Virus record (IMG/VR): IMGVR_UViG_3300034790_000150
Location: 1-33,260 of that record
Length of the DNA: 33,260 nucleotides
Direction: 5' to 3' (one strand)
Source of the DNA: a virus
Shown: piece by piece, positions 576 through 23,714 of the stretch
How positions within the stretch are numbered: position 1 is the stretch's first letter
How the letters are laid out: each line of letters begins with the position of its first letter
Position numbers and translations under genes: made by a program
Notes under the pieces: generated by a model
The model's input: the letters and a program-made list of their open reading frames with translations, nothing else
Databases searched by the model: none
Told to the model about the DNA's origin: nothing

Positions 576-2084
576 ATGGCTAAGCCAGATATTAAAAAGA
601 AAAGAAAAAGCTTTAAAGAGTTTGATGGTTCTAAATACATCGAACTTGAACCAACGCTAGAAGAAGCTGTTAAGTCTAGCACGGTAGTCATGACTTTTGG
701 AAGAATGAATCCTATGACAATAGGCCATGAAAAGCTCGTAGAAAAATTGCTCAAAGAAGCTGTAAAGCGCAAAGCAGAACCTATGGTTTTTCTTTCTCAT
801 TCCTCTGGTGCTAAAACAAAATCTGGCAAAGGCGCTGAAAATAAAGATCCTCTTGCGTATGATGATAAGATTAAATATGCTATTAAAGCATTTGGTCCTG
901 TAGTTAAAAAATCCCCTCTTAAAATCTTGATGTTGATTGCAAAATCTTTACAAGGTAAATATAAGAACTTGGTGATGGTTGCTGGTTCAGATCGGGTTGA
1001 CCAATATAAAGAATTGCTAAACAAATATAACGGCAAAGATTATACCTTTGATTCTATTGAGGTTGTTTCTGCTGGTCAAAGAGATCCCGATGGCGAAGGT
1101 GCTGCTGGTATGTCTGGAACTAAAATGCGCGAATTTGCAGTTGCTGGCAATCTTAATAAATTTGCAAGTAATCTGCCAAAAGCTCTTAAATCGAGTGCAC
1201 AGGAAATTATGGATAAAGTAGCTAAAGCGGTTAATCCGTTATCTGAAGAAGTTGAAGAGTTAGACGAAGTTTTAAGCCGCATGCAACGACGCAAGCGCGG
1301 AATTTCAATGAGAAAAGCACGATTCAAAATCAAACGTGGTAAAGAGAAAGCTGCTAAAAGAACTGCTTCACAAGATGTATTAAAGAAGCGTGCTCGCAAA
1401 GCTGCTCTTAATATCTTTAAAAAGAAGTTTTCTAAAAATAAACGATATGCTGATTTATCACCAGGTGAAAAAGAAGTAATCGAGAAGCGTATTGCAAAGA
1501 TTAATAAGAGCCGTATCGAACAGATCGCTCGTAAGCTTCTACCAAAAGTTAAACAAAAAGAAAGAGAACGTCGTAAGGCTATGATGTCTGGTGGATCTTC
1601 TAAGAATGAAAGCATTAACGAAGCATCTACTAAGGATCAAAGAGTTATGGCTAGACCTCATATGTTAATGGATAAGAACAATAAGCCAAAGACTGATGGC
1701 CGTTTCCGCATGTTCAAGAAAAAGGGTGTTAACGAAGATACCATGGAAGAGCATTATGAATTGTTTGAATTAATGGAAGCTACTGAAAAGTTTAGTGCTC
1801 AAATAAAGACAGAAGAAGGTGGTGCTGGCGATGAAGGTACACCTCGTCTATTAGCTAGATTAAAAAAGGATACTCCTAATAGTACGGTTTCTGAAGGAAC
1901 TGGTATTAAAGCTGGCGATGAAGTTCGTCTTAAAAAGCAATACACCGATTCACCTGCTGAAGCTAAACTGATATTTGTAGTTAAAGAGTTAAGAGGACCG
2001 CGTGTTCTTATCGCACCAAAGGTTTGGAAAAGCGGAATCGTCCCAACTGAATCCGTACAAATGTACATGATACAAAAGGTTTAA
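576..2084 (+). CDS. Nucleotidyltransferase-domain virion-type protein with basic middle region
   Basis: 502 residues. Residues about 33-195 form a cytidylyltransferase/NMNAT-type nucleotidyltransferase domain: the HIGH-class motif is GRMNPMTIGH (residues 42-51) and the second signature is SGTKMREF (180-187). Residues 235-345 are extremely Lys/Arg rich and predicted helical. Residues 443-502 look like a small beta domain (GDEVRLKKQY onward). Sites of the form (I/L)xE followed by Ala occur after residues 30, 349 and 401, resembling T4 gp21 prohead-protease sites; this suggests the protein is packaged in the head and cut. Preceded by a late promoter and an AGGAAT ribosome site. Substrate unknown (NMN, CTP-alcohol and others are possible). 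Confidence 0.7.
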   Translation: MAKPDIKKKRKSFKEFDGSKYIELEPTLEEAVKSSTVVMTFGRMNPMTIGHEKLVEKLLKEAVKRKAEPMVFLSHSSGAKTKSGKGAENKDPLAYDDKIKYAIKAFGPVVKKSPLKILMLIAKSLQGKYKNLVMVAGSDRVDQYKELLNKYNGKDYTFDSIEVVSAGQRDPDGEGAAGMSGTKMREFAVAGNLNKFASNLPKALKSSAQEIMDKVAKAVNPLSEEVEELDEVLSRMQRRKRGISMRKARFKIKRGKEKAAKRTASQDVLKKRARKAALNIFKKKFSKNKRYADLSPGEKEVIEKRIAKINKSRIEQIARKLLPKVKQKERERRKAMMSGGSSKNESINEASTKDQRVMARPHMLMDKNNKPKTDGRFRMFKKKGVNEDTMEEHYELFELMEATEKFSAQIKTEEGGAGDEGTPRLLARLKKDTPNSTVSEGTGIKAGDEVRLKKQYTDSPAEAKLIFVVKELRGPRVLIAPKVWKSGIVPTESVQMYMIQKV

Positions 2085-2088
2085 TGTA

Positions 2089-2397
2089 ATGGATAGCTTT
2101 AAAACGTTCTGTGAAGAAAAAGATTCCCGTTTAGATAACGCTGGTGTTAAAGGTTTTAATAAAGCCAAGCGTACGCCTGGGCATAAAACTAAAAGTCACG
2201 TTGTTGTTGCTAAAGACGGTGATAAAGTAAAAACTATTCGCTTTGGTGAGCAAGGTGCTTCAACTGCAGGTGATCCTAAAAAGGGTGAGTCTGATAAGAT
2301 GAAAGCTAAGCGCAAGTCATTTAAGGCTCGTCACGGCAAGAATATAGCAAAAGGCAAGATGTCTGCTGCATACTGGGCAGACAAAGCAAAATGGTAA
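2089..2397 (+). CDS. Small basic conserved phage protein (DUF6321-like)
   Basis: 102 residues, strongly basic. The C-terminal half (KTIRFGEQGAS, then KRKSFKARHGKNIAKGKMSA and a final AAYWADKAKW) matches a family I know from marine T4-like phages, probably the one named DUF6321; I cannot verify the accession. It starts 4 bases after the upstream stop, so it is likely co-translated with the nucleotidyltransferase protein. Composition suits a nucleic-acid contacting or head-internal protein, but the function is not known. Confidence 0.7.
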   Translation: MDSFKTFCEEKDSRLDNAGVKGFNKAKRTPGHKTKSHVVVAKDGDKVKTIRFGEQGASTAGDPKKGESDKMKAKRKSFKARHGKNIAKGKMSAAYWADKAKW

Positions 2398-2413
2398 TAG
2401 TGCAATCATTTTT

Positions 2414-2421
2414 TATAAATA
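2414..2421 (+). promoter_or_regulatory. T4-type late promoter box TATAAATA
   Basis: Exact TATAAATA in the 53-base gap, 29 bases before the start at 2451. Position and sequence fit a phage late promoter for the long Lys/Glu-rich gene. Confidence 0.65.
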
Positions 2422-2450
2422 TCATTAAATAATACAAAAGGCAAGCTTAA

Positions 2451-4310
2451 ATGAAACGGTTTACAACTCACATAACAGAAGCACGATTAAACGAAGAAAA
2501 TTGTAGCTGCTGCGATAATAAAATTGATGCTGATGGTAAATGTGGATGCGGTCCAGATTGCGAACACTGTGGTGGTCAACACGACGTTGATGAAGGCAGT
2601 TGTGGAACGGTTAACGCTAGCAAGAAAACAGTTAAAGAAGATTATACAGCTAGTTCTGAAAAATCTCAGTTTGGTGGACACCGAGCGCACTTAAAGAATA
2701 AAGAAGGCAAGACTTCTTATCTTGGTGGTAAATCTTATAAGAAGCCCGAGCATGCCGCTGGCGAAGCTCAAGTTTATCAAGATAATTACTCTAAAGGTCG
2801 TGGCGGTAATGAACGTGCCGCTGACAAAGCAGTAAGCGATTATAGAAACAAGAACAAAAAGCATATGCATGAGTCGCAAGATCTTACTGAAGGTAAGATG
2901 AAAGACTTCCATGATATGGTAAACAAAGGTATGTCTGCTGCCGAGATTGCTAAAAAAATTAAAATGCCAGTTAAAGATGTTGCTGATTTTATGAAAGGTA
3001 TGAAAGAAGATCTTGATGAAGGCGGTCTCTGGGCTAACATTCACGCTAAACGTAAGCGCATTAAGAATGGTTCTAAAGAAAAGATGAAGAAGCCAGGATC
3101 TGAAGGTGCTCCTACTGACAAAGACTTTAAAGACGCTTCTGAATCAGTTGAAGAAGGTCTTGAGCAAGACGGACCAAAGACAAAACTTGGAAAGTCGTTT
3201 GGTTTCGGTCGTGGTAAAAAAGTTAGTGATTATAGAGCTAAAAAAGCCCAACAGCGCAATGATATGAATAAGAAGAATGATCCAGGTGCTGCCAAAAAGC
3301 ATTTAGCTCTTAGTGTTATTGATAAAGAAAAAGCTGACAAGAAAGCTAAACCTAAAGGTACATCTATTAATAAGCAATGGCGCAAGAAGATGGGTTACGA
3401 AAGTGTAGACCTTGAAGAAGCTATGGCTGATAAATCTAGTGATGTTTATAAAGAGTATCTATTACTAAAGAAGAAATCTATTGCTGATTTGCGTAAGATG
3501 GTCGGGCAAGCACAACGTGGTGCTGTAGACTTAAAGTCATACGACAAACAAGGCGCTATCTCAGATCTTCTACGTATTAAGTTTGGTCAAAAGAAAGTTA
3601 AAGCTGGCATGGGTCTTGATGAAGCTAAGAAAGTTTCAGACATGACTCCAGAAGAAAAAGCAGCTAACGACAAGAAGCGTAAAGAGTACAACGAATATCA
3701 AAAGTCTAAGCGCAATGAATCTTTAGATGAAGCTAGATCAAGTGCATCAGACCAAGCGGCTAAAGCTGGCGCTTATAACGGTGGCAAGAGTGGCAACAAT
3801 AGTGGTGGTAAAGCACACTTATCTAACAAGCTATCAGGTGATGCTCTTGCTAAACATAGAGAAAAACGTTCTGCTGAATACGAAGCAGATCTTGTGAAAA
3901 AACGAGCTGAAAACGCTGCTAGACTAAAATCATATAGTGAATCTGAAACTAATGATTTAACAGCGCAGTATATTAATGAAAACAATATTTCTCTAGATCA
4001 ACTAGAAAATATGACTGAAGAAGAAATTAACGAGTTGATCGGTAAGGCAATCGGTGGTGCATTTAAGCTTGGAGCTAAAGCTGTTGTAGGTTCTGCTCGT
4101 CTTGCTAAAAAGGCTGCTAACCGAGTTTCTGTTTCTGGTAGAGCAGATGCTGCTGACGCGAAAGCGGACAAGTTTGATAATAAGATTAAAGCTAAGAAAG
4201 CTGCAGTTGCTAAGAAAGCTGCAGACCGGACTAGAATTACAGCGGCTGCAGCAAGGCTTAAAGCTGCTAAAGAAGCTGCTAGAAGTAAACCAGAAAAAAC
4301 TAATAAATAA
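2451..4310 (+). CDS. Large Lys/Glu/Ala-rich, probably head-internal protein with repeated protease-type sites
   Basis: 619 residues with no recognised enzyme domain. The N-terminus is Cys-rich (residues 18-51, several CxxC-like pairs, possible zinc site). The body is made of basic, low-complexity segments separated by short acidic motifs: ITE|A (10), LTE|G (147), LDE|G (190), VEE|G (235), LEE|A (323), LDE|A (391), LDE|A (427). These fit the (I/L)xE|small-residue rule of T4 gp21 prohead protease, so I infer a precursor cut into basic internal peptides during head maturation. A helix-turn-helix-like patch (AAEIAKKIKMPVKDVADF, 163-180) is visible. The C-terminus is Ala/Lys rich. It follows its own late promoter. 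Specific function not recognised. Confidence 0.65.
   Translation: MKRFTTHITEARLNEENCSCCDNKIDADGKCGCGPDCEHCGGQHDVDEGSCGTVNASKKTVKEDYTASSEKSQFGGHRAHLKNKEGKTSYLGGKSYKKPEHAAGEAQVYQDNYSKGRGGNERAADKAVSDYRNKNKKHMHESQDLTEGKMKDFHDMVNKGMSAAEIAKKIKMPVKDVADFMKGMKEDLDEGGLWANIHAKRKRIKNGSKEKMKKPGSEGAPTDKDFKDASESVEEGLEQDGPKTKLGKSFGFGRGKKVSDYRAKKAQQRNDMNKKNDPGAAKKHLALSVIDKEKADKKAKPKGTSINKQWRKKMGYESVDLEEAMADKSSDVYKEYLLLKKKSIADLRKMVGQAQRGAVDLKSYDKQGAISDLLRIKFGQKKVKAGMGLDEAKKVSDMTPEEKAANDKKRKEYNEYQKSKRNESLDEARSSASDQAAKAGAYNGGKSGNNSGGKAHLSNKLSGDALAKHREKRSAEYEADLVKKRAENAARLKSYSESETNDLTAQYINENNISLDQLENMTEEEINELIGKAIGGAFKLGAKAVVGSARLAKKAANRVSVSGRADAADAKADKFDNKIKAKKAAVAKKAADRTRITAAAARLKAAKEAARSKPEKTNK
4302..4309 (+). 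promoter_or_regulatory. Late promoter-like box AATAAATA
   Basis: AATAAATA overlaps the stop of the upstream gene and lies 30 bases before the next start. It fits the NATAAATA variant described for marine T4-like phages. An AAGGAG ribosome site follows at about 4327. Confidence 0.45.
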
Positions 4311-6516: not shown

Positions 6517-6774
6517 ATGTCTTTAGAGAAAATTGTTGCGGAAGCAATGGCAGGACGTCCATTAGAAATGAAGGACGCATTTGCAGAAGAAATCGAATTA
6601 CGTATCCAGAACCGTCTTGAAGAAAAGTACGTTGAAATCATGGAAGCTAAGAAAGCTGACGAAGATGAAGACGACGAAGATGAAGACGAAGATGATGTGG
6701 AAGGCGAAGAAGATGAAGACGAAGATGAAGACGAAGATGATGATAAGCCTGCTTTCTTGAAGAAAGGTAAATAA
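6517..6774 (+). CDS. Acidic prohead-core-like protein (T4 gp67-like)
   Basis: 85 residues. A helical N-terminus (IVAEAMAGRPLEMKDAFAEE) is followed by an almost pure Asp/Glu tract (residues 47-76) and a short basic end (AFLKKGK). This layout, including the AEAMA segment and the acidic tail, resembles T4 gp67, a small prohead-core scaffold protein. An IME|A site at 41-44 matches the prohead-protease rule and would free the acidic tail. It has a strong AAAGGAG ribosome site and a late promoter box. Its position between endolysin and spanins, not beside portal and protease genes, is unusual. Assignment rests on composition and short similarity. Confidence 0.55.
   Translation: MSLEKIVAEAMAGRPLEMKDAFAEEIELRIQNRLEEKYVEIMEAKKADEDEDDEDEDEDDVEGEEDEDEDEDEDDDKPAFLKKGK
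6658..6746 (+). repeat. Imperfect GAAGATGAAGAC repeat coding the acidic tract
   Basis: Short tandem GAAGAT/GAAGAC/GACGAA units encode the run of Asp and Glu in the gp67-like gene. It is a low-complexity coding repeat, prone to length change by slippage. Confidence 0.8.
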
Positions 6775-13091: not shown

Positions 13092-14219
13092 ATGAGCGTT
13101 TTTGATGTGAATAACCGCGTTGACCATACTTCAGTTGCGTCCTTTTTGGATCCAACTGGTGGGCCAACCATTCAACGTTATGATACACTAAAGTACAAGC
13201 AGTTTGATCAACTGACTGATAAACAACTAGGCTTCTTTTGGCGTCCAGAAGAAGTTGACATCTACCAAGATGCAAAAGACTTTAAAGCACTAACAGAACA
13301 TGAACAGCACATCTTTACTTCTAACTTGAAACGTCAGATTCTGTTAGATAGTGTTCAAGGACGGGCTCCAGCTGAAGCCTTTGGTTCTATTGTTTCGTTG
13401 CCTGAACTTGAAAATTGGATCATTACTTGGACGTTCTCTGAAACTATTCATAGTCGTTCTTACACTCACATCATTCGTAACATCTATTCTAATCCATCTA
13501 AGATCTTTGACGGAATGCTTGATGTGCCAGAAATTGTAGACTGTGCTGATTCTATCTCAGGTTACTATGATGATCTTATTGAGAAAGCTGGTTACTATAA
13601 TCTTTTAGGTCTTGGTACTCATACAGTTAATGGTAAAAAAGTTGTAATTGATCTTTACGAATTAAAGAAACTTCTATATCTTACACTAATGAGTGTTAAC
13701 ATTCTTGAGGGTGTACGTTTTTATGTTTCGTTTGCTTGTTCGTGGGCATTCGCTGAATTGAAGAAAATGGAAGGTAACGCCAAGATCATTAAGCTTATTG
13801 CTCGTGATGAAAACTTGCACCTTGCATCTACTCAAATGATGCTAAAATTGCTTAAGCAAGAAGATCCTGATTTTGTGAAGATTGAAGAAGAAACACGCGA
13901 TGAATGTACTCAGATGTTTGTTGATGCAGTTGATCAAGAAAAAGAATGGGCTGAATACCTATTTAAAGACGGATCTATGATTGGTTTAAATACTGAGTTA
14001 CTTTCTCAATATATTGAATTCATTGCGACACGTCGTATGACTAACGTAAAACTTACTTCACCTTACACTATTAAATCTAATCCGTTACCGTGGACACAAA
14101 AGTGGATTTCAGGAGCTGACGTTCAAGTAGCTCCACAAGAAACAGAAATCACTTCTTATGTTCAAGGTGGTACAAAACAAGATGTCGATAAAGACACATT
14201 CACAGGATTCTCGTTATAA
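13092..14219 (+). CDS. nrdB: Class Ia ribonucleotide reductase, small (beta) subunit
   Basis: 375 residues. It houses the di-iron centre and tyrosyl radical. Ligands and radical site align with E. coli NrdB: Asp86 in LLDSVQGR, Glu117 and His120 in FSETIHSRSY, radical Tyr124, then EGVRFYVSF and ARDENLHLAST. The radical Tyr is kept, so it is the standard iron-tyrosyl class, needing oxygen and iron. The C-terminus (DTFTGFSL) fits the NrdA-binding tail. The stop overlaps the ALAS start by one base (TAATG), so ALAS is co-translated with it. Confidence 0.96.
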   Translation: MSVFDVNNRVDHTSVASFLDPTGGPTIQRYDTLKYKQFDQLTDKQLGFFWRPEEVDIYQDAKDFKALTEHEQHIFTSNLKRQILLDSVQGRAPAEAFGSIVSLPELENWIITWTFSETIHSRSYTHIIRNIYSNPSKIFDGMLDVPEIVDCADSISGYYDDLIEKAGYYNLLGLGTHTVNGKKVVIDLYELKKLLYLTLMSVNILEGVRFYVSFACSWAFAELKKMEGNAKIIKLIARDENLHLASTQMMLKLLKQEDPDFVKIEEETRDECTQMFVDAVDQEKEWAEYLFKDGSMIGLNTELLSQYIEFIATRRMTNVKLTSPYTIKSNPLPWTQKWISGADVQVAPQETEITSYVQGGTKQDVDKDTFTGFSL

Positions 14220-15409
14220 TGTATGAAAAATATTTTGATGCCGTAGTAAAAGATTTTCAAGTAGATGGTCGTTATAGAGTATTTAACGACATTCTTAGAG
14301 AACGTGGAGCCTTTCCCGAAGCTATATGGTATGGCAAATATGCTCCTAAGAACATCGTAAACTGGTGTTCAAATGACTATCTTGGTATGGGTCAAAACGA
14401 ATATGTAATTAGTGCTATGCACACTGCGCTAGATCAATCTGGCTCTGGTTCTGGTGGTACTCGAAATATCGGCGGAACTTCACAATACCACGTAACACTT
14501 GAAAGAGAGCTTGCTAGTCTGCATAGTAAACCAGCATCTTTGTTATTTACAAGTGCTTACGTTGCTAATGAATGGGCTCTTATTGCTCTAAGTAAAATTA
14601 TTCCAAACATTTGTTTTATTTCTGATAGTAAAAACCATGCTTCATTAATTGTTGGTATGTCGCATAGTCGTGCTGCTAAAAAAGTTTTTGAACATAATAA
14701 CTTATATGATTTAGAAGCACAACTTAAAGCTGCAGTAAAAGCAAAACATATTCCTTGTGTTGTATTTGAGTCTGTTTATTCTATGGACGGTGATATTAGT
14801 CCAATGGAAGCTATCTGTGATCTTGCAGATAAATATGACGCAATTACTTATATTGATGAAGTTCATGCTGTTGGTCTATACGGTGAACAGGGTGCTGGTT
14901 GGATTGAAAAACTAGGATTATCAGATAGGGTTGATATAATCAATGGTACGTTGGGTAAAGCGTTCGGCGTTCAAGGCGGGTATATTGTCGGGAATACTAA
15001 TATTATTGATGCTGTTAGGTGTGTTGCTAGTGGGTTTATATTCACCACATCAACTAGTCCGGTCATTTGTGCCGGAGCCTTGGCATCTATCAGATATCTC
15101 CGTGACAATCCTCAACTAAGAGATAAGCATCAAGAACGTGCAACAAAGCTAAAAGAAATGTTAGCTGAAGCTGATATACTAGTCCATGAAAGCTCATGTA
15201 CTCATATTGTTCCTGTAATGGTAAATGATGCGTTTAAATGTAAAACCGCAAGTGATCGTCTTTTAAATGAGTATGGCATATACATTCAAGCGATTAACTC
15301 GCCAACCGTTGCTGCCGGATCTGAAAGACTAAGAATTGCTCCTACACCATTCCACAACGACGTAATGATGATACAGTTAGTAGAGGCATTGAAAGAAGTT
15401 TTAAAATGA
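14219..15409 (+). CDS. hemA: 5-Aminolevulinate synthase (ALAS, C4/Shemin pathway)
   Basis: 396 residues, normal for bacterial ALAS. It condenses glycine with succinyl-CoA to 5-aminolevulinate, the first committed heme step in alphaproteobacteria. It is an alpha-oxoamine synthase with the ALAS signature GSGSGGTRNIGGTSQYH (about 75-91), PLP-contacting YIDEVHAVGLYG (Asp213, His216) and PLP Lys247 in GTLGKAFGVQGG. KBL and BioF relatives lack the TRNIGGTSQYH form. The start overlaps nrdB's stop. No heme-regulatory CP motif with mitochondrial-type leader is visible. It likely came from an alphaproteobacterial host. All key residues are present, so it is probably active. Confidence 0.93.
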   Translation: MYEKYFDAVVKDFQVDGRYRVFNDILRERGAFPEAIWYGKYAPKNIVNWCSNDYLGMGQNEYVISAMHTALDQSGSGSGGTRNIGGTSQYHVTLERELASLHSKPASLLFTSAYVANEWALIALSKIIPNICFISDSKNHASLIVGMSHSRAAKKVFEHNNLYDLEAQLKAAVKAKHIPCVVFESVYSMDGDISPMEAICDLADKYDAITYIDEVHAVGLYGEQGAGWIEKLGLSDRVDIINGTLGKAFGVQGGYIVGNTNIIDAVRCVASGFIFTTSTSPVICAGALASIRYLRDNPQLRDKHQERATKLKEMLAEADILVHESSCTHIVPVMVNDAFKCKTASDRLLNEYGIYIQAINSPTVAAGSERLRIAPTPFHNDVMMIQLVEALKEVLK

Positions 15410-19896: not shown

Positions 19897-20871
19897 ATGA
19901 CTAAGTTTACAAATGCTGTTAATAGAATAGAACAGCCGTGTCCTCCTATTTGGATGATGCGACAAGCTGGTAGGTATCAGCCTTCTTACATGGAAATAAA
20001 GCAAAAATATAACTTTGAGCAAATGTGCAAGTTGCCACGAGTAGCAGCTGATGTTGCTATGTTGCCTATTAAAGAGTTTGATTTTGATGCTGCTATTTTG
20101 TTTAGTGATATTCTTTGGCACGTCGAAGGACTAGGCATCCCTGTAAAGTTTGATCCCGCACCTAAGTTTGAGTTTAATCTAACCGAAGATAACTGGAAAG
20201 ACCATTCTGACTTTAGACAAGCAATGGATCATTTAAAGTTTCAGCAAACTGCTATAGCTTTAACGCGTGATTTACTTCCATCTAGTAAGAGTCTAATCGG
20301 ATTTATTGGTGGTCCTTGGAGTGTATTGAACTATGCACTTGGTACTAATAAAGTAAGTAACGATTTCAAAACGATGTATCTTAAAGAAGTTATTATTCCG
20401 CTGATGGCTAGAAGTATTAGAGCTCAGAAAGATGCTGGCGCTGATGTCGTTATGATTTTTGATAGTGGCTTGCATAATGTTAGCAAAAAGTATTATGAAA
20501 CTGTATATTTGCCGATACTACAAGAGCTTTCTGATATAGGTGGTGTTGGTTATTATTCTCGTGCTTTACCGAATGGTACTCTGCCCAAAGTAAAGAAAAT
20601 GAATTGGTGTGGCATCGGTATTGATTCTAGTGAAAACTTACCTAAAACATTACAGACACATAAGAATGGTTTTGTGCAAGGTAACTTCGATGAAAGCCAT
20701 ATGTTATTAGAGAACAAGCTGTACCATTATGAACTAGATAAGTGGCTCGATACTTTAGATGGTGTTGATACTACTGGTTGGATCTGCGGTCTTGGACATG
20801 GCATATATAAGACGACACCGCCTGCTAATGTGCAGTACTTTATTGATACCGTGAGGAATAAATTCGAATGA
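19897..20871 (+). CDS. hemE: Uroporphyrinogen decarboxylase
   Basis: 324 residues, slightly shorter than the usual 340-355. It removes four carboxyls from uroporphyrinogen III to make coproporphyrinogen III. Signatures: WMMRQAGRYQPSY (Arg22, Arg26 for substrate carboxylates), FSDILWHVEGLG (Asp71 catalytic), a FDPAPKF stretch, FIGGPWSVLNYALG, IFDSGLHNVS and the final LGHGIYKTTP block. All key residues I can place are kept. Its stop overlaps the next gene's start (ATGA). Only a weak ribosome site is visible; coupling to the upstream hydrolase may help translation. Confidence 0.95.
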   Translation: MTKFTNAVNRIEQPCPPIWMMRQAGRYQPSYMEIKQKYNFEQMCKLPRVAADVAMLPIKEFDFDAAILFSDILWHVEGLGIPVKFDPAPKFEFNLTEDNWKDHSDFRQAMDHLKFQQTAIALTRDLLPSSKSLIGFIGGPWSVLNYALGTNKVSNDFKTMYLKEVIIPLMARSIRAQKDAGADVVMIFDSGLHNVSKKYYETVYLPILQELSDIGGVGYYSRALPNGTLPKVKKMNWCGIGIDSSENLPKTLQTHKNGFVQGNFDESHMLLENKLYHYELDKWLDTLDGVDTTGWICGLGHGIYKTTPPANVQYFIDTVRNKFE

Positions 20872-21212
20872 TTAGTTATAGCACAAATTGGATGGGACCA
20901 GTAAATACTAAGTGGTACGAAGATAGAGACATACCTTACGTGTTAAAAACAACGAGTGGAAGATTTGGTCCTGCTAAAGAGTACAAAGACTTTACTGAAT
21001 CATATTCTTGTGGGCGTATAGATATTCGTGGGTTAGACGAAGAAGAATATTATTGTGGTCAGCACGAGTACGGTGTTTCTCCAATGCGTACTGAAGATTG
21101 GAACGCATTAGGAGATTGGTTAGATAATACAAAGGATGAAAGCATAACTACATATAAAGAACTGATACGTCAATTCGAAGATCACTATGGCAAGATACGG
21201 TGGAGCAAATGA
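20868..21212 (+). CDS. Conserved phage protein of unknown function inside the heme operon
   Basis: 114 residues, acidic, no membrane segment or signal. It opens with ISYSTNWMGPVNTKWYEDR and has a central ESYSCGRIDIRGLDEEEYYCGQHEYG block and a C-terminal helix. The opening block resembles small hypothetical proteins I have seen in marine phages, not a heme enzyme; it is too short and unlike HemD or HemB. It is locked between hemE and hemF by ATGA overlaps on both sides. Function unknown; a role with the heme enzymes is suggested only by position. Confidence 0.75.
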   Translation: MISYSTNWMGPVNTKWYEDRDIPYVLKTTSGRFGPAKEYKDFTESYSCGRIDIRGLDEEEYYCGQHEYGVSPMRTEDWNALGDWLDNTKDESITTYKELIRQFEDHYGKIRWSK

Positions 21213-21997
21213 TGTTTGATTTATATGCTAGTTGGTTTAAAACACTGCAAGAAAACATTTGCCACACTATAGAAGATATAGATAGCGAAATGGAAAGCCA
21301 CGAGCCTACAGGAAAAGAAGGATGGACTCAAAGGCATATGACTTTGCGTGGTGATGTGTTTGAGAAAGCAACTGTAAACTTCTCTAAGATTGAATCTGAA
21401 TTCGATCCTGAGTTTGCACACGAAATTCCAGGCACTGAAGAGCACAATAAATATCAGGCTACTGGGATCAGTGTTGTTCTTCATCCTTGGAACCCGCATG
21501 CTCCTGCAATGCATTTCAATACACGTTACTTAAAAACAAGCACTAAAGAATGGTTTGGTGGTGGCATGGATGTTACTCCTTGTATGCCATTCGATAAAGA
21601 ATCATATCATAACGAATTAAAAGATATGTGTGAAATATTCGATTCAGAGTATTATCCTAAGTTCAGCAAAGCATGTGACGAGTATTTCTATTTGCCACAT
21701 CGTAAAGAAACACGTGGCGTAGGTGGTCTGTTCTTTGAGTACCACGATCCAAAGGATATGAGCTTTGATTTTGTAAAAGATGTTGGTAATACATTTAATG
21801 ATTTAATACGATCTATTGTTACTCCTACGTTAGAGATGAATTACTCTCAAGCAGATAGAGAAATGTTAGAAATTAAACGTGGACGATATGTTGAGTTCAA
21901 TCTATTATATGATAGAGGAACTCGTTTTGGTTTTAAAACAGGAGGTAACATGGATGCGATTCTGATGAGTCTTCCACCAACAGTGAGATGGACATGA
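21209..21997 (+). CDS. hemF: Oxygen-dependent coproporphyrinogen III oxidase, C-terminally short
   Basis: 262 residues from the ATG at 21209, which overlaps the upstream stop; the adjacent ATG at 21212 has better spacing to GGAG. It converts coproporphyrinogen III to protoporphyrinogen IX using oxygen. Signatures: GISVVLHPWNPHAP, MHFNTRYL (His102), WFGGGMDVTPCMPF (115-128), YFYLPHRKETRGVGGLFF, and GRYVEFNLLYDRGTRFGF. It ends at LPPTVRWT, so it lacks the tail of roughly 30 residues seen in cellular HemF. Active-site blocks are intact. It overlaps the hemC start. Confidence 0.95.
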   Translation: MMFDLYASWFKTLQENICHTIEDIDSEMESHEPTGKEGWTQRHMTLRGDVFEKATVNFSKIESEFDPEFAHEIPGTEEHNKYQATGISVVLHPWNPHAPAMHFNTRYLKTSTKEWFGGGMDVTPCMPFDKESYHNELKDMCEIFDSEYYPKFSKACDEYFYLPHRKETRGVGGLFFEYHDPKDMSFDFVKDVGNTFNDLIRSIVTPTLEMNYSQADREMLEIKRGRYVEFNLLYDRGTRFGFKTGGNMDAILMSLPPTVRWT

Positions 21998-22740
21998 TGA
22001 TTAGAGTAGGAGTAAGAGGTAGTAAGCTAGCATTAGCATATGCTGATCGTGTAAGAATGGCACTTCCGTTCGCATCTGAATTAGTTGTTATTAAAACATT
22101 AGGTGATTTAAATCCTAACGTTCCTGTTAACGAGATCGGTGGCAAAGGTGTGTTTTGTTCTGCGTTAGAAATGGCGTTGCTTGATAACGAGATTGATGTT
22201 GCTGTGCATAGCTTAAAAGATATGCCCGGAGACTTTGAGCATCCAGATCTAGAAATTACTTCAACATTAAGACGCAATTTGCCGCACGACGTGCTGATTG
22301 GAAATATTTCTGACGGCTGTACATTAGGAACAAGCAGTCCTAGGCGAATCTCGCAATTAGAAGAGCTTTACTCTGGACGTGGGATAAAAATTAAGCCTAT
22401 CAGAGGAAACATTGATAGTCGCTTAGCAAAGCTTGACGCTGGCGAGTATGATGCGATCGTACTAGCAGAAGCTGGTTTGGTAGCGCTTCGCATTGCAAGG
22501 TCATATACTAGATTAGCTATCATTCCTGCTGTAGGTCAAGGCACTATTGCTTTGCAGTGCAGGAAGTCAGACGCTAGCACAATAGAACAAGTAATACAAC
22601 TTGACCACGAATTAACTCATCGCCAATCTGATTTAGAACGTGCTTTATTAAAAGGTCTTATGGGTGACTGTACTACATCTGTTGCGGCCTATGCGCACGG
22701 CGATAATCCTATTAAAATGAAGACAGTTTTTTACAAGTAA
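21994..22740 (+). CDS. hemC: Porphobilinogen deaminase (hydroxymethylbilane synthase), C-terminally short
   Basis: 248 residues from the ATG at 21994 (ATGA overlap with hemF; 21988 and 21997 are alternatives). It links four porphobilinogens into hydroxymethylbilane. Signatures: RVGVRGSKLAL, GGKGVFCSALEMAL, VHSLKDMP with catalytic Asp76, LGTSSPRRISQL, IRGNIDSRLAKL, VGQGTIALQCR, and the dipyrromethane-attachment Cys226 in LMGDCTTSVAAYA. Cellular enzymes run about 60 residues further after this Cys (E. coli 313 aa); domain 3 is therefore trimmed here. All catalytic residues are present. Confidence 0.94.
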   Translation: MMIRVGVRGSKLALAYADRVRMALPFASELVVIKTLGDLNPNVPVNEIGGKGVFCSALEMALLDNEIDVAVHSLKDMPGDFEHPDLEITSTLRRNLPHDVLIGNISDGCTLGTSSPRRISQLEELYSGRGIKIKPIRGNIDSRLAKLDAGEYDAIVLAEAGLVALRIARSYTRLAIIPAVGQGTIALQCRKSDASTIEQVIQLDHELTHRQSDLERALLKGLMGDCTTSVAAYAHGDNPIKMKTVFYK

Positions 22741-22991: not shown

Positions 22992-23030
22992 ACACCACAG
23001 TATTATATAAAAAGCATGGAGATTCATCAT

Positions 23031-23714
23031 ATGAATAAATTAAGCAGTAAAGCTATCGACATCATGGATTTGATGAAACCGGCAGGTGGTCAAAACGGAA
23101 GAATCATTACTAAAAACGCAGTGCACATTCATGAGTTCTATTTGAGCGGTGATATTGATTCACCTGAAGAATATATTGAATGGTTCGATATTATTAGAAG
23201 CGCAAGTGCAAACGATATTATAAAAATCTATATTAACTCTAGCGGTGGTGATCTTTTCACAGCTATCCAGTTTATGCGAGTTCTACAAGAAACAGACGCA
23301 ACTATATCAGTATCAGTAGAAGGTGCTTGTATGAGCGCTGCTACTCTTATCTTCTTGCAAGGTCATCAGTTTGAAGTTTCACCACACTCGATGTTTATGT
23401 TCCACAACTATTCAAGTGGAGTAATGGGTAAAGGTGGCGAAATGTATGATCGTCTATCACACGAAAAGGGTTGGTCTGAAAAGCTAATGCGAGACGTATA
23501 CGCAGATTTCTTAACTGACGATGAAATTTCTTCTATTCTTGGTAGCAAAGATATTTGGATGGACGGTGACGAAATCATCGAACGTTTAAAGCATAAAGTA
23601 TCAGTAATGGAAGCAGCGATTGATAAAGCTGAAGCTAAAACTGAAGCTAAAACTGATGAGCCAGAAGAAGATACCAAGCCAAAGAAACGAGCTCCTCGCA
23701 AATCTAAAAAATAA
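23031..23714 (+). CDS. ClpP-like serine protease with basic C-terminal tail
   Basis: 227 residues; start at 23031 has GGAG 9 bases upstream, while the in-frame ATG at 23016 lacks a ribosome site. It is a family S14 (ClpP) fold: FYLSGDIDSPEEY, YINSSGGDLFTAIQF for oxyanion contacts, nucleophile Ser102 in GACMSAAT, His125 in FMFHNYSSG and a likely Asp174 in SKDIWMDGDEI. The tail (190-227) has a 12-base tandem duplication (EAKTEAKT) and a Lys/Arg-rich end. No ClpX/ClpA partner is in the window, so it may work with host chaperones, alone, or in prohead maturation. The last is speculative. Confidence 0.85.
   Translation: MNKLSSKAIDIMDLMKPAGGQNGRIITKNAVHIHEFYLSGDIDSPEEYIEWFDIIRSASANDIIKIYINSSGGDLFTAIQFMRVLQETDATISVSVEGACMSAATLIFLQGHQFEVSPHSMFMFHNYSSGVMGKGGEMYDRLSHEKGWSEKLMRDVYADFLTDDEISSILGSKDIWMDGDEIIERLKHKVSVMEAAIDKAEAKTEAKTDEPEEDTKPKKRAPRKSKK

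Follow-up and report, generated by a model that had tools for sequence, protein, structure and literature searches.

A marine relative of T4 is predicted to encode long proteins of interchangeable modules joined at head-protease-type sites

In phage T4, the head protease gp21 cleaves after L/I-X-E, and residues 4 and 7 of the capsid-targeting sequence serve targeting while residues 8 and 10 serve processing; in T4 IPIII, D at position 10 prevents processing (PMC9026906). Polyvalent proteins, described by Iyer et al. in 2017 (PMC5512222), are multidomain chains for which packaging and delivery along with the DNA have been proposed, and the authors draw an analogy to polyproteins. The DNA considered here, referred to below as the window, is the entire 33,260-base IMG/VR record IMGVR_UViG_3300034790_000150, a fragment of a T4-like phage whose near relatives are uncultured viral contigs from the sea and other aquatic sites. 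At issue are four open reading frames (ORFs). Three are neighbors and encode proteins of 502 amino acids (aa; 576-2084), 102 aa (2089-2397) and 619 aa (2451-4310), and the fourth, at 6517-6774, is gp67-like; these ORFs and the sites and modules located within them are on the + strand. Judged from sequence, this marine relative of T4 encodes long proteins of interchangeable modules joined at head-protease-type sites. The gp21 rule and targeting sequence (PMC9026906) and the presence of nucleotidyltransferases in cyanophage virions (PMC10665884, PMC9602691) are taken from published work on relatives.

An earlier note on this DNA had listed nine sites of the form (I/L)xE followed by A or G in the 502-aa and 619-aa proteins, a close match (VEE/G, the slash marking the predicted cut) after residue 235 of the latter, and a site after residue 43 of the gp67-like protein. 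All are present at those residues (9/9 for the listed sites), and the nine match the gp21 rule exactly. Three sites had been overlooked, one in the 619-aa protein (VDE/G, residue 48) and two in the 502-aa protein (LKE/A, residue 61, and VSE/G, residue 440). The model places the site at residue 61 within an ordered helix belonging to the enzyme fold, and this site is probably a chance match. When the motif was counted against shuffled sequences, as the note had proposed, the two long proteins were enriched and the other window ORFs were not. With composition shuffles, the 619-aa protein has 6 [IL].E[AG] sites versus 0.82 expected (p about 0.001) and 8 [ILV].E[AGS] sites versus 1.58 expected (p < 0.001), and the 502-aa protein has 4 [IL].E[AG] sites versus 0.75 expected (p 0.007). 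No further window ORF reached p < 0.05 for [IL].E[AG]. Looser motifs gave p values of 0.003-0.05 in some other ORFs, as is expected when about 48 ORFs are tested with three motifs.

The enrichment extends to the family. For the 502-aa protein, 31 non-redundant relatives were collected; their tails, tested against 12-aa local shuffles that keep composition, contain 89 [IL].E[AGS] sites versus 35.2 +- 5.6 expected (z 9.6). The related motif V.E[AGS] is also raised (36 versus 16.7) and [IL].D[AGS] is lowered (16 versus 31), while one-residue-shifted and reversed motifs occur in these tails at about the expected frequency, with no enrichment. DNA-level repeats were considered as an origin of the sites and rejected, as the sites are not DNA repeats. 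For this and the following tests, distance windows, identity cut-offs and other thresholds were set during the analysis and not in advance, the sequence sets overlap, gene starts were assigned mechanically, and most of the related records (given below by L and G numbers) are fragments.

The sites lie at module boundaries. Parts of proteins of the 502-aa and 619-aa type recur in otherwise unrelated proteins, and close relatives differ by clean insertions or deletions (indels) of at least 20 aa, of which 34 were collected, 20 being distinct by sequence. An indel end was counted if it fell at most 6 aa from [ILV].E, with the expectation obtained by sliding the interval along the same protein. By this measure, 27 of the 40 ends are at a site (10.0 +- 2.7 expected), and both ends are at a site in 11 of 20 indels (1.3 expected). 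The indel midpoints are at [ILV].E in 0 cases and the ends at [ILV].D in 2/40; under the strict rule [IL].E[AGS], the ends are at sites in 13/40 versus 3.0. For segments common to unrelated proteins the effect size is modest: 22% of the ends (84/387) and 15% of the starts (67/448) are near a strict site, as are 10% of random positions and 3.6% of midpoints.

A further test compared leader-led and fused forms of the same module. In a stricter version, which replaced one that had included antisense frames, 175 ORFs with a T4-type leader and 17 module clusters with internal homologues were used. An [ILVMF].E cut lies at most 4 aa from the position that aligns with the mature N-terminus in 200/241 distinct internal contexts, versus 44 expected; the strict rule holds for 52 of the 241. 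As an example, L015 has a free P-loop kinase domain beginning MLRFKTFINE/GVNDPSIFKAVFLAGGPG, and in L090 the domain is fused into a longer chain, with LLDE/ preceding it. This Zeta-toxin/AAA_33-like kinase occurs as a leader-led free protein or fused into a nucleotidyltransferase protein (L015:4531-5199, L047:3017-3838, L090:9956-13246). Taken with the family enrichment and the indel ends, the leader test backs the polyprotein-like layout of the earlier note and bears out its appeal to T4 and gp21-type sites.

Other leader-led proteins were observed among the related records. A 210-aa protein (L050:12771-13403) has a T4-type leader, MQNFKSFISE/A, followed by an HD_4-type HD domain and is a possible packaged hydrolase. 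DUF6267 proteins (L001:1530-2774 and many related records) have T4-type leaders such as MHNFKEFISE/A and MKRFTQYIAE/A; L001 reaches upstream of the window. Separately, a protein at L075:888-2723 carries a 134-aa insertion with a VVSSHN-like ending (YYTNGVSSHN) relative to an otherwise similar protein in L100, and by its look the insertion is an intein.

The 502-aa protein (576-2084) had been called a head protein; it is instead predicted to be a nucleotidyltransferase of the nicotinamide mononucleotide adenylyltransferase (NMNAT)/phosphopantetheine adenylyltransferase (PPAT) fold that starts with a propeptide of about 30 aa and ends in a tail carrying further sites. It matches phrog_3041 'cytidyltransferase' (E 1.9e-60), and relatives score above the cut-off for Pfam CTP_transf_like, which the window protein itself does not reach. 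The AlphaFold2 model has a mean predicted local distance difference test (pLDDT) score of 70, mostly 85-95 in the enzyme core, and its best PDB matches are PPAT (TMt 0.71, E 1.1e-5) and NadD, that is, phosphopantetheine and nicotinate-nucleotide adenylyltransferases. Both the fold and the active-site motifs of an HxGH nucleotidyltransferase are present, with TIGH replacing HxGH and MSGTKMR replacing ISSTxxR, and residues G50, H51, S180 and R185 are invariant. Virion proteomes of T4-like cyanophages are reported to contain homologues (PMC10665884, PMC9602691), one of which, S-CREM2 gp154, was detected by mass spectrometry with 3 unique peptides (PMC10665884); the authors of that study consider co-purification possible. 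S-CREM2 gp154 is homologous to the 502-aa protein (32% over 173 aa, E 2e-17) and starts with a T4-type leader, MKNFSSFLTE/A.

In the 502-aa protein, the site LEE/A (657-668, P1 being residue 30) lies in a stretch with pLDDT < 50 and is the predicted propeptide cut directly before the enzyme fold; a site is found here in 26/29 family members, always 10-11 aa upstream of GRMNP. The site INE/A at residue 349 (1614-1625) falls in the low-pLDDT stretch 341-362, and a PHMLMDKN module begins there. LME/A at residue 401 (1770-1781) is a motif match within a predicted helix (389-412). VSE/G at residue 440 (1887-1898) follows the weaker rule and marks the beginning of a IKAGDEVRLKKQ module, which in L247 and L013 follows a capsid-targeting sequence. 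In the model, confidence is low around sites 30, 349 and 440; 401 is in a helix and 61 in the ordered core.

The 619-aa protein (2451-4310) is a predicted polyprotein on account of its site excess and mosaic relatives. It is 100% identical in two related contigs; relative to its ortholog in L003 the pN/pS ratio is 0.39, and site codons are largely kept between close relatives. The model consists of helical pieces with low overall confidence (mean pLDDT 61, pTM 0.27), in which sites 147, 190, 235, 323 and 391 coincide with low-confidence stretches or lie a few residues from them. For both proteins, such placement would count as weak support for cutting. The 619-aa chain begins with a capsid-targeting-like sequence of about 10 aa ending in (I/L)xE, MKRFTTHITE/A (2451-2483, site after residue 10), comparable to MKTYQEFIAE/A of T4 ipII and ipIII: residues 8 (I) and 10 (E) are as in T4, residue 4 is F (Y in T4) and residue 7 is H (F in T4). 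The 502-aa protein has its 30-aa propeptide instead.

Downstream of this leader, VDE/G at residue 48 (2586-2597) is conserved in L006, L007 and L013. LTE/G at residue 147 (2883-2894) is a motif match preceding a module of predicted helix-turn-helix-like helices (residues 148-190, GKMKDFHDMV...FMKGM, 2892-3020), which recurs in otherwise different proteins in five loci (L019, L020, L022, L023 and L024). In five loci, the module downstream of site 147 is preceded by LEE/G or LTE/G. The motif matches LDE/G at residue 190 (3012-3023) and VEE/G at residue 235 (3147-3158) enclose the LWANIHAKR (LWAN) module (residues 191-235, GGLWANIHAKRKRI..., 3021-3155, phrog_16028). The module at residues 324-391 (SSDVYKEYLLLKKKSIADL..., 3420-3623) is absent from the 93%-identical ortholog in L003 precisely from LEE/A at residue 323 (the left indel end, 3411-3422) to LDE/A at residue 391 (the right indel end, 3615-3626), and it is found behind SE/A or DE/A in L011, L028, L031 and L043. 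LDE/A at residue 427 (3723-3734), a motif match, is less sure because of its predicted location inside a long helix (400-441).

As a free 47-60-aa ORF, the LWANIHAKR module occurs in 54 loci and in ten complete genomes of podophages or unclassified small phages in which Peptidase_S77, the family of gp21, was not matched. In window-related loci, the module is fused and has [ILV].E within about 8 aa upstream, or FNE in the case of L014. Several fused copies from other records (L154, L176 and L182) have no preceding site; these records are fragments, so that an absence of gp21 is not shown for them. A free ORF resembling the 102-aa protein was observed within 600 nt of the free LWANIHAKR ORF in 15/68 distinct cases (L143, L147, L167, L177, L185, L200, L209 and others). 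The window's own 102-aa ORF (2089-2397) has a targeting-like start, MDSFKTFCEE, and matches phrog_7595 and, weakly, phrog_220 'minor head protein and DNA pilot'. The 102-aa module is likewise found fused within other proteins and free in podophages.

The protease itself is found among the relatives: gp21 is encoded in 9/40 related fragmentary records, among them G006, where a 619-aa protein relative is also present, and in 6/6 complete T4-like genomes that have a 502-aa protein homologue. The major head protein gp23 of four related gp21-bearing records has FLTE/T, LLSE/T, LLSE/A or FLSE/A, matching the T4 gp23 site FLTE/A. Core proteins adjoining gp21 in relatives bear ELDE/A joints as well, and modules of the 619-aa and 502-aa type are also present within their gp67- and gp68-like core proteins. 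In the window, the candidate small core protein at 6517-6774 (85 aa) is gp67-like in its layout and in its position in relatives, with sites VAE/A (9) and IME/A (43). A BLASTP comparison with T4 gp67 gave no alignment and did not show homology; the likeness is one of size, acidic tail and sites. A ClpP-like ORF at 23016-23714 scores below the cut-off of an NCBIfam model for a ClpP-related head maturation protease, which it matches. It is not favored as the head protease of the window phage because gp21 is present in relatives and a T4-type gp23 site is kept.

These observations make it probable that both the 502-aa and the 619-aa protein are targeted to the head as precursors and cut there by a gp21-type protease at module joints, with products partly retained and delivered. 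An N-terminal targeting propeptide would bring both precursors into the prohead core, where the protease would cleave after (I/L/V)xE, with A, G or S as the usual next residue. The 502-aa precursor would yield a free nucleotidyltransferase and both precursors modules about 35-190 aa long. At least some of the products may remain in the head and be delivered along with the DNA. The targeting, cleavage, fragment retention and delivery, as well as any functions of the small modules, are what we infer from these sequences. The same arrangement of leader, module, site and module may be common to many proteins of the phage group, its modules moving as site-bounded units. A broader version, which we put forward tentatively and would not yet bet on, is that marine T4-like phages use a general shuffled cargo code in which dozens of enzymes and small peptide modules enter the head one by one, each behind a leader, or together in polyproteins dismantled by the protease: one leader, many effectors.

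If true, there would be a sequence rule predicting head-bound proteins and their pieces in a very abundant group of marine phages, many of these proteins now being annotated as 'hypothetical proteins'. The old question in T4 of the purpose of internal head proteins would become testable with many natural variants, and a polyprotein strategy would be seen to be processed in trans by the head protease of a tailed phage.

Several points weigh against the precursor model. The sequences are related and the shuffles take no account of this, so that the z-scores are too large, a problem that the indel and leader tests lessen and do not abolish. Per-protein enrichment is weak in three other related genomes (6 versus 2.6, p 0.05, for the 1087-aa homologue in G014), and a whole-genome motif ranking (G014, G006, G028, G034) is also weak with few proteins prominent; thus the motif by itself does not identify substrates. 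At the joints, P1' is often a residue other than A, G or S (I, L, D, E or K). Sites 401 of the 502-aa protein and 427 of the 619-aa protein are in predicted helices and site 61 is in the enzyme fold, and the mature N-terminus rule of the leader test was fitted after inspection of the data. No gp21 (Peptidase_S77) is present in the 33-kb window, which is a fragment, and no proteomics was found for the window phage or any polyprotein of this type. The earlier description of the products as basic segments is true on average, the two whole proteins being net basic (+44 and +37). It does not hold segment by segment, since net charge spans -1 to +38 for segments of the 502-aa protein and -7 to +15 for those of the 619-aa protein; with several segments neutral or acidic, the label 'DNA-binding' is not supported.

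The main rival to the retention and delivery of products is that both the 619-aa protein and the tails belong to the prohead core or scaffold, like T4 gp22, gp67 and gp68, whose gp21 pieces exit the head to make way for DNA and leave no free cargo. The presence of the same modules in core proteins beside gp21 is what this explanation would lead one to expect; T4 core fragments and propeptides mostly exit the head (PMC9026906), and in SPN3US the propeptides are mostly lost after several cuts (PMC10052503). Yet several modules, including the kinase, the HD domain and the nucleotidyltransferase, are also found free with their own targeting leader, some are free genes in phages without gp21, and nucleotidyltransferase homologues are reported from cyanophage virions (PMC10665884, PMC9602691). 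Such free and leader-led forms speak against core filler, although any given module may still be of that kind, and on balance it is rather unlikely as a general account.

It is also conceivable that the joints are acidic flexible linkers of the ESVELDE type, inherited with the modules, that resemble gp21 sites and remain uncut. Most linkers are indeed acidic (net -1 to -4), and they are often alike (E-S-V-x-L-D-E), their relatedness inflating the counts. The constraint on order, spacing and residue (E and not D, P3 being I, L or V, and P1' being A) is nevertheless specific, with the family z-score arising despite shuffles that keep composition; P2 varies among sites that are not DNA repeats, and the same rule is seen behind targeting leaders and in gp23, making uncut linkers improbable. 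Chance is more improbable still. The motif is short and degenerate, the proteins are rich in I, L, E and A, with 0.8-1.7 sites expected per protein, and the excess in single genomes is weak, but the family-wide enrichment and the indel and leader tests disfavor it.

Elsewhere, the window contains four tetrapyrrole-pathway genes (14219-15409, 19897-20871, 21200-21997 and 21988-22740), comprising 5-aminolevulinate synthase, a hemE-like gene (below the curated cut-off), oxygen-dependent coproporphyrinogen oxidase and hydroxymethylbilane synthase. The 5-aminolevulinate synthase DNA has a match in 11/14 related records. Heme genes (coproporphyrinogen oxidase and porphobilinogen deaminase) are known from some pelagimyophages (PMC7029224).

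A DNA-level search of named phages with the module region gave no match, and among the open-licence papers covered, no description of cargo polyproteins joined by head-protease sites was found. The precursor model may nonetheless be compared with several known systems. Like the T4 internal proteins IPI, IPII, IPIII and Alt, the window proteins are net basic and follow the P3-P1-P1' rule, and the 619-aa protein has a 10-aa leader ending IxE/A; T4 internal proteins consist of one leader and one mature protein, whereas the window chains have up to eight internal sites and modules shuffled between proteins. The T4 core proteins gp22, gp67 and gp68 also have several gp21 sites per chain, a gp67-like ORF is nearby, and the gp67- and gp68-like proteins of relatives share modules; the T4 fragments mostly exit the head, however, while the window modules have free and leader-led counterparts. 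The NMNAT-like enzymes or cytidylyltransferases of cyanophage virions (S-CREM2 gp154, S-SCSM1, S-CBWM1, S-SZBM1) have an enzyme domain homologous to the 502-aa protein, although S-CREM2 gp154 is 286 aa in length and has no modular tail. Cultured T4-like phages that have the long form include Sinorhizobium phage phiM12 and Methylophilales phage Melnitz. Polyvalent proteins similarly place several domains on one chain, as seen here with an enzyme and modules to which relatives add a P-loop kinase and DUF5824. Their release is attributed to embedded peptidase domains; no peptidase family was identified in the two window proteins or nine relatives, and the window chains would instead be cut in trans by the head protease. 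In the giant phages phiKZ and SPN3US (gp245), the head protease cleaves after xxE at multiple places per protein, but the additional cuts are in N-terminal propeptides and not between recurring modules. Relative to the T4 internal-protein system, what appears to be new is the presence of several modules per chain, joined and shuffled at predicted head-protease sites.

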